Assembly: GCA_016938735.1 (NCBI GenBank) | Contig: JAFGUB010000060.1 | Span: 1 to 53,117 of the forward strand | Length of the DNA stretch: 53,117 bases | Direction of reading: 5' to 3' | Source: Campylobacterales bacterium | GTDB taxonomy: Bacteria; Campylobacterota; Campylobacteria; Campylobacterales; Sulfurimonadaceae | Shown: in pieces, positions 73 to 3,805 of the stretch | Layout of the letters: each line of letters opens with the position of its first letter | Numbering within the stretch: the first letter of the stretch is position 1 | Translations under genes and position numbers: made by a program | The notes under the pieces: generated by a model | The model's input: only the letters and a program-made list of their open reading frames with translations | The model's database searches: none | Told to the model about the DNA's origin: nothing

Positions 73-107
73 TTTTATTTACCGTTTGTTTAAAGTAGCC
101 TGTCCCC
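73..107 (-). repeat. REP-like repeat, left inverted copy
   Basis: The reverse complement reads GGGGACAGGCTACTTTA, six bases, then CGGTAAATAAAA. It matches the forward-oriented copy at 980-1014 over about 35 bases with a few differences. The two copies bracket the two small secreted genes. Sequences of this general type (GGGGACAGGCTACTTT) are, from memory, often attached to REP-associated tyrosine transposases; no transposase is visible in this window. Confidence 0.6.
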
Positions 108-150
108 TTTATCCCCTTTATCGGCATTCGTCATTTTTCCTTATTGGTGA

Positions 151-462
151 CTATTCTTCAATCTCTCTGGTAATGACATAAATTGAACCTTTTTCGTCTT
201 TTAGTTGAGTAATTCCATTCTTTTTATCTGTTCTTTCAAACCAATCAATATTAACATTTACGTGTAGTTCTCCGCAAATTCTTTTTGTCTTCATATCTGA
301 TTGAAAAGTATAAAATTCTTGAAATGAAGACAATTCTCTACTGTCGCCAAGAGTCAATATTTTTAACATAGTATCTTCATTTTTGCAAAATAAATACCCT
401 TGTGGAATCACTCCTCCCGCAGCCAAACAAAAGGCTATTGATAAAAATAATGATATTTTCAT
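151..462 (-). CDS. Small exported protein of unknown function
   Basis: A 103-residue product that I do not recognise. It opens with a Lys-plus-hydrophobic stretch (MKISLFLSIAFCLAAGG) that looks like a signal peptide, so a periplasmic or surface location is likely. Two cysteines remain in the predicted mature part (in YLFCKNED and RICGELH), which could form a disulphide. Its ATG overlaps the stop of the upstream gene (459-725) as ATGA, so the two are translationally coupled and presumably act together. Base use is AT-rich, unlike the core genes further right, and the pair sits between inverted REP-like repeats; both facts point to acquired DNA. A lipoprotein is an alternative, but I see no clean lipobox. 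Confidence 0.6.
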   Translation of the reverse strand: MKISLFLSIAFCLAAGGVIPQGYLFCKNEDTMLKILTLGDSRELSSFQEFYTFQSDMKTKRICGELHVNVNIDWFERTDKKNGITQLKDEKGSIYVITREIEE

Positions 463-725
463 TTATTATAGTTATTGATAAATCGAATTAATTCTTCTTC
501 AGCAGTTTCCATACCAGATTTAATTCCTTTTGTAGTAGCACTGTGCTCACGGCAACTAAGAGATATTGCTATATCTGTGCCTTGTTGACAAGGTAAACCT
601 TGCATACTATTATATGAGCACTTTCCATATAAAAAGCCTTCCTCGAAACACTTAGACCAAGCATCTTTTGCTTGTGAAGAAGAAACAATTGCTAGAAAAA
701 GAACGATCCCAGCTATTAACTTCAT
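459..725 (-). CDS. Small cysteine-rich exported protein of unknown function
   Basis: An 88-residue product, not recognised. Residues 1-19 (MKLIAGIVLFLAIVSSSQA) are a textbook signal peptide with an S-Q-A cleavage site. The mature part, about 69 residues, has four cysteines (WSKCFEE, YGKCSYN, GLPCQQG, LSCREH), consistent with two disulphides in the periplasm. It is the first gene of a two-gene unit, overlapping the next gene by four bases. AT-rich codon use and the flanking inverted repeats suggest horizontal origin. Secretion is visible in the sequence; the role (inhibitor, immunity protein, adhesin accessory) is not. Confidence 0.65.
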   Translation of the reverse strand: MKLIAGIVLFLAIVSSSQAKDAWSKCFEEGFLYGKCSYNSMQGLPCQQGTDIAISLSCREHSATTKGIKSGMETAEEELIRFINNYNK

Positions 726-1391
726 AGTATGACTCCTATTGTCTTTAAATTTTTAGATAAGAGGTTGAAATAGTTAACACCCAAACTCTTGTTATGTTTA
801 GACGCGATCACTCTGTTGAAACAGCTTAAGAATATATCTAAGAATAAAATCTCTAAACTTCTATTACCTAAAATTGAATATCGATTATAAGGGTTAGTGG
901 TTGAATCACACCTTAGAAAATGGTGTCAAACAGAAACGAGGCTACTTTTGCAGGAAACGAGAAATGGGGACAGAGAAATGGAGACAGGCTACTTTAAATG
1001 GTCGGTAAATAAAATCGCCACCTGCACAAAAAATGGGGACGATGCTACTTTAAATATGTGAGCTGATAAGCTGCATGATAAGAGGTTTTACATGTAAGGT
1101 TTAGGTTTAAGAGTAGCCTCGCGCCTATTTTCTTCAGTTGGAGAAATCGAGCAGATAACGTAAAATGCAATTGGCGTCGATCCTAATCGTCGGTGATGCC
1201 GCGACTACCCCGGCTTGATGATGTTGGTTGCTACGATAAGACGTTTTTACACCTTACTGCTGAGCTGCGCTCTGTGTTTCATCTTGAGCTTTCAAAATCT
1301 GGAATGAACGGCTAAAATCCGATAAGCGTTTTATATCACTCCATCTTCTGCTTGCGTGCTTTTTTCAAAATGGATGTTGAAAGGATTTTAA
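726..1391. other. 666-bp stretch without a convincing gene
   Basis: AT-rich to about 1.1 kb, then of normal composition. It holds the three REP-like repeats (936-1053), a small inverted repeat ACACC/GGTGT near 908-926, and one TTACATGTAA at 1088-1097. No open frame of convincing length or codon use is visible on either strand. The right part presumably carries the promoter of the thioredoxin gene. Confidence 0.6.
936..1053 (+). repeat. Cluster of three REP-like repeats, right side
   Basis: Three forward copies of a GGACAGGCTACTTT-like word lie in tandem: a short one at 936-950, the best at 980-1014 (GAGACAGGCTACTTTA followed by CGGTAAATAAAA) and a diverged one at 1034-1053 (GGGGACGATGCTACTTTA). 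The middle copy is the inverted partner of 73-107. A further inverted fragment (GAGTAGCCTCGC) follows at about 1111-1122. Confidence 0.6.
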
Positions 1392-1745
1392 ATGGTACAA
1401 GAACTCAACGATGACACCTACAGCGACCTCATCGCCTCCACCGACAAGGCGCTCTTCATCGACTTCTACTCCCCCACCTGCGGCCCCTGCCAGAGCGTGC
1501 TGGGGATGCTCGCTCCTATCGCGGCGCATTTTGGCGACACAGCTTTAGTGTGCAAGGTCGATGTCTCGCGTAACCCGCGTCTGGCGCAAAAATACGAGAT
1601 CCGCAGCGTCCCTTTTTGCGTCAGTATCGGGACTGATAAAATGGTCAAGGATTATGAGCTCGGTGCCGCCTCCATAGGCCGCTATATCGCCATGATCGAG
1701 AAGGCGCAGGGCAAGGGTTTTTGGTCGCGGCTCTTTGGCAACTAG
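1392..1745 (+). CDS. Thioredoxin-family protein
   Basis: A 117-residue thioredoxin fold protein with the active site Cys30-Gly-Pro-Cys33 (in SPTCGPC; the usual Trp before the first Cys is Thr) and the cis-proline at Pro74 (RSVPF). It should carry out thiol-disulphide exchange in the cytoplasm, as there is no signal peptide. The C-terminal tail (KGFWSRLFGN) is longer and more basic/aromatic than in classical thioredoxin and could touch a partner or the membrane. The ATG follows a good AAGGA ribosome site. The Crp/Fnr gene starts 15 bases after the stop, so they probably form one operon. The altered WCGPC motif suggests a specialised thioredoxin; its partner is not visible. Confidence 0.9.
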   Translation: MVQELNDDTYSDLIASTDKALFIDFYSPTCGPCQSVLGMLAPIAAHFGDTALVCKVDVSRNPRLAQKYEIRSVPFCVSIGTDKMVKDYELGAASIGRYIAMIEKAQGKGFWSRLFGN

Positions 1746-1760
1746 CCTTACATGTAAGCC

Positions 1761-2405
1761 ATGAAATCGACCGAACTCACCCCCGCCGCACTGGAGCGTT
1801 TAGCCCCCGCCCTACCCCAAAAGCGCCGTCTCGTCTTTGAAGCGGGCGCTACCCCTTTTGATGGCACCGACACCCAAAAGCACTTCTACTTCATCATGGA
1901 CGGCGTCATCAAAATTTCGCAGATCAATCCCAAAAATGGCCGCGAACAGACCCTCTACCTGCTCTCACGCGGCGATATGTTTGACGTGATCAGCCTGCTT
2001 GACGGTGCGGAGCACGAATATGTCGCGCAGGTGCTGGAGCGCGCGGAGCTGGTCGAAGTGGAGATGGCGCAGGTGCGCACCCTGCTAGAGCACGACGTGG
2101 AGTTCAAGCGCTTTTTCTTCCCCTACATGGCCGCGCAACTGCGCCAGATGGAGCAACTCGCCTCCGATCTTTCGCTGCGCGACGTCTATGATCGGCTACT
2201 CAACCTCTTTGGCCGCTACGCCCGTAGTGACGGCAGCCTGCGGCTTATCGGCAACCTCAGCCACGAAGAGCTCGCCGCACTGGTCGGCTCCGTGCGCAAA
2301 GTGGTCAACCGCGCCTTGCAGCAGCTCAAAGAGGAGGGGGTCATCGAACTCTCGCGCAAACATCTGCGGCTTAAGAGTTTGAAGAAGTTGCTGGATCGGT
2401 TGTAA
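1761..2405 (+). CDS. Crp/Fnr-family transcriptional regulator
   Basis: 214 residues. An N-terminal cyclic-nucleotide-binding-type beta-roll (roughly 20-125, with FYFIMDGVIKIS and LLSRGDMFDVISLL) is followed by the dimerisation helix and a C-terminal winged helix (about 165-205, LSHEELAALVGSVRKVVNRA). The Fnr iron-sulphur cysteines are absent, so it is not a classical oxygen sensor; it may read a small ligand or redox state. It follows the thioredoxin gene by 15 bases, and that gap contains a complete TTACATGTAA, leaving only a weak ribosome site; coupling to thioredoxin translation is likely. The target genes are unknown. Confidence 0.9.
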   Translation: MKSTELTPAALERLAPALPQKRRLVFEAGATPFDGTDTQKHFYFIMDGVIKISQINPKNGREQTLYLLSRGDMFDVISLLDGAEHEYVAQVLERAELVEVEMAQVRTLLEHDVEFKRFFFPYMAAQLRQMEQLASDLSLRDVYDRLLNLFGRYARSDGSLRLIGNLSHEELAALVGSVRKVVNRALQQLKEEGVIELSRKHLRLKSLKKLLDRL

Positions 2406-2557: not shown

Positions 2558-3805
2558 ATGCATTCTTTTTCCCAACTGCGCGAGCGCTCAGGGCTCAGCA
2601 TAGAAGAAGTTGCTACTTTAGTACATAAGAGCGAACGCACCATCTATCGATGGGAGGGTGGGGCAACAATGCCCGATACGCTTGTTGTCCAGAAATTGCA
2701 AGATATAGTTAATGCAAAAAAAACCCTCCATCATGTACCCACCTTCACATTCATTGATCTTTTCGCAGGAATTGGGGGCCTTCGGATGGGCTTTGAATCT
2801 ATCGGAGGAAAATGCATTTTTACTAGCGAATGGGACAAATATTCACAAATCACCTACCGTGCGAATTTCCATGATGATCATCCCATTGCGGGAGATATCA
2901 CCAAAATTGCTGCCGCTGATATTCCCGCACATGATGTTTTGTTGGCTGGTTTTCCCTGCCAACCCTTTTCACTTGCCGGAGTTTCAAAAAAAAACAGCTT
3001 AGGGCGCGAACATGGATTTAAATGCGACACCCAAGGTACGCTATTTTTTGATGTAGCTCGCATTATAGAACATCATAAGCCAAAAGTTTTTTTGCTTGAA
3101 AATGTCAAAAACCTCCAAAGTCACGATAATGGGCGCACTTTTGAAATAATCAAAAAAACCCTAACTGAAGAGCTTGGCTACAATATCGACTCAATTGTTC
3201 TTGATGCAAAAACCCTTGTACCTCAGCACCGTGAACGTATTTTCATTGCCGGCTTCAGGGACAATATAGACTTTAAATTTTCCAATTTTTCCTTCCAGAA
3301 ATCGATACAAAGCCCAAAATTAAAAACTATTTTACATAACGAGTCCGAAGCATCTGAACTACCTTATACTTTGCGCGATCCCATCACTAAAGCATTGCGT
3401 GTTAACCCAAAATACACCCTTTCAGAAAAACTTTGGGATTATCTTCAAGCTTATGCAGAGAAACACCGCCAAAAGGGTAATGGATTTGGATTTGGCCTAG
3501 TCGGACCAAATGACACAGCGCGTACCCTTTCCGCCCGCTATTACAAAGATGGTTCAGAAATTCTCATCCGCCAAGAAGGCGCTATTCCGCGCCGACTTAC
3601 ACCACGAGAATGTGCACGACTGATGGGCTTTGATGCAACCCGTAATCCCGACTTTGCTATTCCTGTTTCCGACACCCAAGCTTATCGACAGTTTGGAAAC
3701 TCGGTCGTAGTGCCAGTCATTAAGGAAGTCGCTCGATACATGCAACCTTTTATTTTATCTACACTCTCACGAAAGATACAATTGTCCTCTCACTTTACTG
3801 TATAA
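2558..3805 (+). CDS. Dcm/M.EcoRII-type DNA (cytosine-5) methyltransferase
   Basis: 415 residues. A helix-turn-helix of the XRE type fills residues 3-50. The methyltransferase domain follows with motif I (FIDLFAGIGG, 65-74), the catalytic motif AGFPCQPFS with Cys134, ENV at 181-183, QHRER at 223-227 and the closing QFGNSVVVP from 378. The stretches FPCQPFSLAGVSKKNSLGR and SARYYKDG with LTPRECARLMGF are strikingly like E. coli Dcm and M.EcoRII, so the expected product is C5-methylated CCWGG. The start follows a strong GAGGAGG site. The gene is AT-rich relative to its neighbours and faces the EcoRII-like nuclease gene tail to tail. The N-terminal helix-turn-helix probably also regulates expression, as proposed for M.EcoRII. 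An A9 run lies at 2986-2994. Confidence 0.95.
   Translation: MHSFSQLRERSGLSIEEVATLVHKSERTIYRWEGGATMPDTLVVQKLQDIVNAKKTLHHVPTFTFIDLFAGIGGLRMGFESIGGKCIFTSEWDKYSQITYRANFHDDHPIAGDITKIAAADIPAHDVLLAGFPCQPFSLAGVSKKNSLGREHGFKCDTQGTLFFDVARIIEHHKPKVFLLENVKNLQSHDNGRTFEIIKKTLTEELGYNIDSIVLDAKTLVPQHRERIFIAGFRDNIDFKFSNFSFQKSIQSPKLKTILHNESEASELPYTLRDPITKALRVNPKYTLSEKLWDYLQAYAEKHRQKGNGFGFGLVGPNDTARTLSARYYKDGSEILIRQEGAIPRRLTPRECARLMGFDATRNPDFAIPVSDTQAYRQFGNSVVVPVIKEVARYMQPFILSTLSRKIQLSSHFTV

Follow-up and report, generated by a model that had tools for sequence, protein, structure and literature searches.

Y1 transposases that generate dispersed repeats have been described under several names, and two descriptions lie closest to the locus analyzed here. 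TIRtrons, as outlined in portions of Di Nocera et al. (2013; PMC3733652), carry a Y1 transposase gene with GGGGWSAS ends, and their terminal inverted repeat (TIR) families occur as single, dimeric or grouped copies. In the TnpA-Y1 classification, going by excerpts of Quentin et al. (2018; PMC6006769), subclass 2.1 accounts for 20 of the 26 described TIRYTs, with GGGG[AT][CG]A[CG] present in most flanking repeats; these excerpts also note that some E. coli strains have a toxin-antitoxin operon in place of the REPtron locus. In general, RAYTs and TIRYTs tend to be portrayed as generators of short repeats, and their use to the host is unclear. The locus examined here lies in a 53,117-nucleotide stretch of DNA from a Campylobacterales bacterium (hereafter the window), which is the start of contig C40 in a draft genome of 62 contigs and 2.85 Mb. 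We consider it probable that the inverted repeats in the window are dispersed ends of an element with a REP-associated-type Y1 (HUH) transposase, and that the cargo between these decayed ends occupies a lineage-variable locus.

An initial annotation of the window had described a 35-base inverted repeat (73-107 and 980-1014) enclosing an AT-rich block with two small secreted genes, and the observation was borne out. The arms are identical at 30 of 35 positions, or at 32 of 38 when extended to 73-110 and 977-1014; among ungapped inverted matches in positions 1-1100 the top score was 20, above all 200 dinucleotide shuffles (mean 10.5, maximum 14). Chance origin is ruled out by these shuffles together with a genome-wide count of the 16-base core GGGGACAGGCTACTTT, which has 39 matches at up to two mismatches in the 2.85 Mb searched versus two for the reversed control; confinement to the window is ruled out by copies across the genome. 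The left repeat unit (73-110, minus strand) comprises a RAYT-type TIR core at 92-107 and an outward leader of the AAATAAACGGTAAA kind, and the right unit (977-1014, plus strand) a core at 980-995, with one mismatch, and an outward leader. A partial core tip, GGGGACAG, read from the letters at about 966-973 on the plus strand, adjoins the right unit, and a degenerate GAGGCTACTTT at 935-948 represents a partial further copy. The two extra forward copies claimed at the right were recovered in part: one is clear but degenerate (1036-1055, plus strand, four mismatches versus the 20-mer GGGGACAGGCTACTTTAAAT), whereas the others are partial. GC content is 33% between the arms (111-976) against 51% in the remainder of the window (1400-53,117), and 12 bracketed stretches of the genome likewise range from 28 to 46% GC against 51%.

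The enclosed genes look like two small putative exported proteins. Both lie on the minus strand as open, ATG-started frames overlapping by four bases, encoding 103 (151-462) and 88 amino acids (459-725). By eye, both translations have signal-peptide-like N-termini, followed in the 88-residue protein by four cysteines. Neither has a match in Pfam or NCBIfam or a relative in plasmids, phages, the other repeat loci or the other-taxon loci examined, and the 88-residue protein, the one scanned against viral contigs, has no relative there; a second copy of the cargo was thus not found in any of these collections. Assignment to a known family is rejected on the Pfam, NCBIfam, plasmid and phage results and, for the 88-residue protein, the viral-contig result. 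Structure models of the two proteins are of low confidence (mean pLDDT 56.7 and 53.7).

Core matches and degenerate copies in the genome were grouped by us into 18 loci, excluding weak single matches (two mismatches) on C7 and C36. At 12 of the 18, a contig end is no more than 1.7 kb away, compared with about 7% expected for a random point, so the repeats either interrupt the assembly or lie at variable sites. Positions 1-110 of the window are 99% identical to the start of contig C1 (L032:1-110), where the next gene, encoding a DUF6602 protein, stands behind a similar repeat unit. The genome search proposed by the initial annotation, for the repeat and for a Y1/REP-associated transposase, also recovered two Y1_Tnp genes, on C5 and C28, both above the Pfam cut-off (62.2 and 58.3 bits versus 23) and both with the repeat just upstream. 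There the core, 40 or 43 bp before the ATG, reads AGGGACAG, its single mismatch falling at the first G of the GGGGWSAS motif. Because both proteins fall narrowly below the NCBIfam REP_Tyr_transpos equivalog cut-off (78.3 and 73.9 versus 80 bits), we term them RAYT-like rather than certified RAYTs. By eye, their translations share HFH (within MPNHFHLL), a candidate HUH motif, and a common YIEAN tyrosine, a candidate for the catalytic one. A matching 3' TIR was not found within 150 bp of either gene (best, six mismatches), and therefore no complete element was seen in this genome.

More complete arrangements came from other taxa. A 19-base form of the core retrieved 35 stretches across other contigs, belonging to Elusimicrobia, Campylobacterota, gammaproteobacterial symbionts and others, and relatives of the C5 and C28 proteins occur in 13 of these 35 (L074 and L102 being parts of one contig). 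Among 11 other-taxon transposase copies, seven (L077 twice, L082, L085, L086, L089 and L102) have the core, with at most one mismatch, inverted at both ends and GGGGACAG outermost. In L079, cores with zero and two mismatches surround a broken transposase gene; L074 retains a clear core on the 3' side only, and the copies in L103 and L106 run off the end of the locus. Open transposase frames are present in L077, L082 and L085; the L089 frame is partial, and stops interrupt those in L086, L102, L074 and L079. The Y1 protein of the sister genome (Sulfuricurvum sp. MAG SulCav_PC08_66, 74% complete, the sole other genome of the genus compared) is divergent, at about 30% identity, and has a different end. 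Since the core stands upstream of both resident Y1 genes and at both ends in seven of the 11 copies, the repeat is, by its sequence, the TIR of a TIRtron-like element, a kind already described: the predicted element end consists of the TIR core GGGGACAGGCTAC(TTT) with the transposase leader on its inner side, corresponding to the TIRtron of Di Nocera and colleagues. In a Campylobacteraceae MAG (L077:1534-6820), two near-identical 3.4-kb tandem units lie between porin-like genes, each with several cores, genes for small membrane-protein-like products and, with the core on either side of it, a transposase gene whose frame is open.

The anatomy of the dispersed units follows that of the transposase leader. 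Several align over roughly 35-70 bp with the leader of the C5 and C28 transposases, some of these alignments extending beyond both the ribosome-binding site and the start codon; a unit beside the C5 transposase gene keeps 149 bp of leader at 96.6% identity. The window units carry the AAATAAACGG leader and both resident transposases a different one, ATGATAYAAT; the parent gene of the window units is therefore absent from the assembly. By eye, the layout of the window leader kind resembles that of the leader of the L082 transposase. As far as the letters go, then, core-plus-leader copies are scattered, mostly without a gene, with tandem cores at several loci. Tandem core duplicates spaced 22-26 bp apart occur at six loci (C1, C28, C31, C42, C44 and C54). 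At the last of these (L041:3984-4047), a 26-bp core-containing unit is present twice, plus 13 bp, within nuoC, where it introduces a stop codon; the sister's nuoC is without these copies, and an assembly fault in the draft MAG is a possible explanation for them. The gene upstream of nuoC there encodes an HsdM-type methylase (N6_Mtase/HsdM).

A palindrome, TTACATGTAA, recurs beside the units. In the window it lies, with no strand assigned, on the outer (GTAG) side of the left unit (32-41) and outward of the right units (1088-1097), just more than 90 bases from the core at 980-995. Among 43 own-genome units, defined by the core or one of six typed variants with tandem copies counted separately, 30 have the letters ACATGTA within 90 bases on the GTAG (leader) side and three have them on the tip side. 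The palindrome is also abundant in its own right. The 53-kb window has 26 copies, where base composition predicts 0.05; 68 kb of sister sequence has 27 and 84 kb from other family members eight, and none occurs in stretches totaling 41 kb from Elusimicrobia and 71 kb from gammaproteobacteria. It is found within genes as well, in the manner of a highly iterated palindrome. Searching the literature for these letters returned no match by title or abstract opening among the matches listed.

To characterize the genes near the repeats, 50 proteins (both window proteins and both transposases included) and three later additions from C19, C38 and C54 were compared with Pfam, covering selected ORFs per locus rather than every ORF. 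Among these selected proteins, a toxin-antitoxin protein above the Pfam cut-off lies within 2 kb of a core at nine of the 18 loci (C5, C6, C9, C15, C28, both C31 loci, C48 and C56), and C41, C42 and C44 have sub-threshold matches only. At the remaining six (C1, C19, C38, C40, which is the window, C45 and C54), no toxin-antitoxin match was found among the scanned proteins, the C38 PIN gene being left out of the tally at 4.8 kb from the core; the genes there include DUF6602 (C1), Kelch (C19), AAA_14/DUF4143 (C38), ORF6N (C45) and nuoC (C54). On C9 the order is repeat, toxin-antitoxin, repeat, toxin-antitoxin, repeat, spaced by 677 and 630 bp. Such an alternating array would be expected of an integron-like cassette array with the repeats as attC sites. 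The core motifs of attC are GTTRRRY and RYYYAAC; the former is present in none of 32 units and the latter in one, and the enzyme linked to the repeat is a Y1 transposase. We reject the attC reading on these motif counts and regard an integron-like origin as extremely improbable.

A second alternative is that repeats and acquired small genes simply gather at tolerant intergenic sites with no mechanistic link between them, which we consider possible but doubtful. Zones extending 2 kb from a core cover 2.4% of the genome and contain two of 12 ParE and four of nine Phd/YefM matches; after collapsing, four of 17 Phd/ParE loci fall in these zones, which argues against mere co-location (p ~6e-4 on a uniform null, which ignores intergenic bias). 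Yet ten ParE and five Phd/YefM matches lie away from any repeat, and the repeat cluster inside nuoC has no cargo between its copies. The weakness of the cross-taxon comparison likewise suits mere co-location. Of 72 small ORFs no more than 1 kb from a core in other taxa and the sister, there are at least three ParE, two HigB-like and one each of YoeB, Phd, PIN and RelE (25 of 42 families listed, and one protein may match twice), and among 43 ORFs at least 2.5 kb from a core at least one antidote family (25 of 41 families listed). As a lower-bound count, near versus far stands at six to zero, giving a one-sided p of only ~0.056. Particular pairs do recur beside the same core elsewhere, which also speaks against co-location: the C42 RHH/RelE pair has homologues in L103 (48 and 57% identical), the C5 PIN/HicB pair in L089 (34 and 33%) and the C28 Phd/YoeB pair in L086 (42 and 52%), all of them 35-669 bp from that core and in another family or another phylum, although these loci were fetched for holding the core and their nearness is partly built in.

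Comparison with the sister bears on the history of the window itself. The thioredoxin-like gene trx (1392-1745, plus strand) and the Crp/Fnr-like regulator gene (1761-2405, plus strand), both named by reading their translations, form a flank common to the two genomes. In the sister, the stop codon of an AEC permease gene overlaps the ATG of trx and the window block is absent; in the window, homology to the sister resumes at 1375-1391 (plus strand), which corresponds to the final bases and stop codon of that permease gene abutting trx. In our genome AEC lies at the end of C20, followed by 262 bp, and trx on C40 after the block; C20 and C40 are unjoined, so the full left side of the block is not seen. 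About 20 bp of the AEC-trx junction are recognizable on both sides, as would follow either from a duplicating insertion or, in the sister, from a deletion between short repeats. Of 25 other loci examined, the sister alone has the AEC-trx-crp order, which leaves insertion and deletion indistinguishable. The comparison for an empty site suggested by the initial annotation thus found the junction intact in one sister, which fits gain or loss of the block alike. Searching the 74% complete sister with 24 flanks combined in one query yielded 10 matches, with both flanks recovered for C5 and nuoC only. An island of about 4.8 kb on C5, starting directly after the terminator-like palindrome of purH and containing the transposase, the PIN/HicB pair and exported proteins, is absent from the sister, where its site is in one piece. 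Just past the crp-like gene, the window encodes a predicted cytosine DNA methyltransferase (2558-3805) with an N-terminal HTH-like part, as read by eye from the translation.

The orientation of the arms qualifies the initial reading of the block as a mobile cassette. Relative to the transposase elements, the window bracket is inside-out, with leaders pointing outward and core tips towards the cargo. The same order of minus unit, cargo and plus unit, with tips facing the cargo, recurs at C42, C56, C31, C28, C6 and C45 as well as in the window, although some arms at these seven loci are degenerate or of the GACGAGGC variant; C9, with three cores in one direction, is the exception. Given this reversed topology, the cargo sits between two outward leaders, as if between two elements minus their transposase genes. 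Alternatively, the inverted units may be the functional ends of a true non-autonomous cassette, the transposase moving the two-gene block and similar blocks at C42, C56, C31, C6, C45 and others. The recurrence of the inward-tip topology would suit such a cassette, as would both C42 units extending 43 bases out to the palindrome, the absence of the block from the sister, and the C42, C5 and C28 pair homologues near the core in other taxa. But the transposase elements are oppositely arranged, with their tips outermost; cargo and both ends were not found as one unit at two sites, nor was a target duplication clearly belonging to the units; and the window cargo has no relative in the collections searched. 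We therefore regard the cassette as unlikely, although movement of the neighboring genes by these dispersed ends is in itself plausible. Of the initial reading, the link to a Y1 transposase and the empty sister site stand, but the inside-out arms and the lack of a second cargo copy do not agree with it. That annotation had also named genome-wide repeats unrelated to the cargo as evidence against mobility; the repeat does occur at 18 loci, and the window cargo has no relative at the others, which counts against the initial reading.

The reading we favor, that of dispersed transposase ends around a lineage-variable cargo, would proceed as follows. The enzyme would cut and join single strands at GTAG/CTAC beside the core, thereby seeding new ends and local tandem tips. 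Elements may have inserted on either side of AT-rich acquired DNA and subsequently lost their transposase genes, leaving two outward leaders around the two exported-protein genes. Recombination between repeats, or further transposase activity, could then have reshuffled the loci, such that close relatives differ. A broader and rather speculative proposal, which we think improbable as it stands, is that RAYT/TIRYT-type transposases with GGGGACAGGCTAC ends constitute a gene-cassette system in Campylobacterota and certain other bacteria. This would be the equivalent of an integron built on a single-strand transposase, in which toxin-antitoxin pairs and small exported or membrane proteins would be captured between transposase ends and exchanged between loci and taxa, and the window pair would be one such cassette. 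If these ends do also gather and exchange toxin-antitoxin and exported-protein genes, a widespread transposase group would be moving defense and surface genes.

Set against known systems, the loci resemble integron arrays and CALINs in having small accessory genes, including toxin-antitoxin pairs, separated by repeats, but differ in the missing GTTRRRY motif and in a Y1 transposase taking the place of the tyrosine integrase. With REP/REPIN sequences and their RAYT (TnpA-REP) they share an HUH/Y1 transposase, GTAG at one repeat end and dispersed non-autonomous copies; here, however, no REP-type hairpin was noticed by eye directly at the GTAG, and the copies are few (39 at up to two mismatches) and clustered. 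The C-terminal helix-turn-helix attributed to subclass 2.1 in the excerpts of PMC6006769 went undetected by Pfam in five proteins of the own transposase subfamily and in the sister's divergent Y1 protein, none of the six matching an HTH model up to E = 5 (HMMER filters on). In the titles and abstract openings among the matches listed, from a search that most subscription papers fall outside, RAYT, TIRYT or TIRtron ends are not described as enclosing cargo or toxin-antitoxin cassettes, and a word search of the main text of PMC3733652 gave zero occurrences of "cargo" and "toxin". The closest likeness is to the TIRtron as portrayed in portions of that paper: a Y1 transposase flanked by GGGGWSAS TIRs, here GGGGACAG, with single, dimeric and grouped dispersed copies. 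What distinguishes the present loci is that the 5' leader is part of many solo copies, which bracket AT-rich cargo and are often found next to toxin-antitoxin pairs, and this repeated association of TIRtron-like ends with AT-rich accessory genes in an inside-out bracket may be new.
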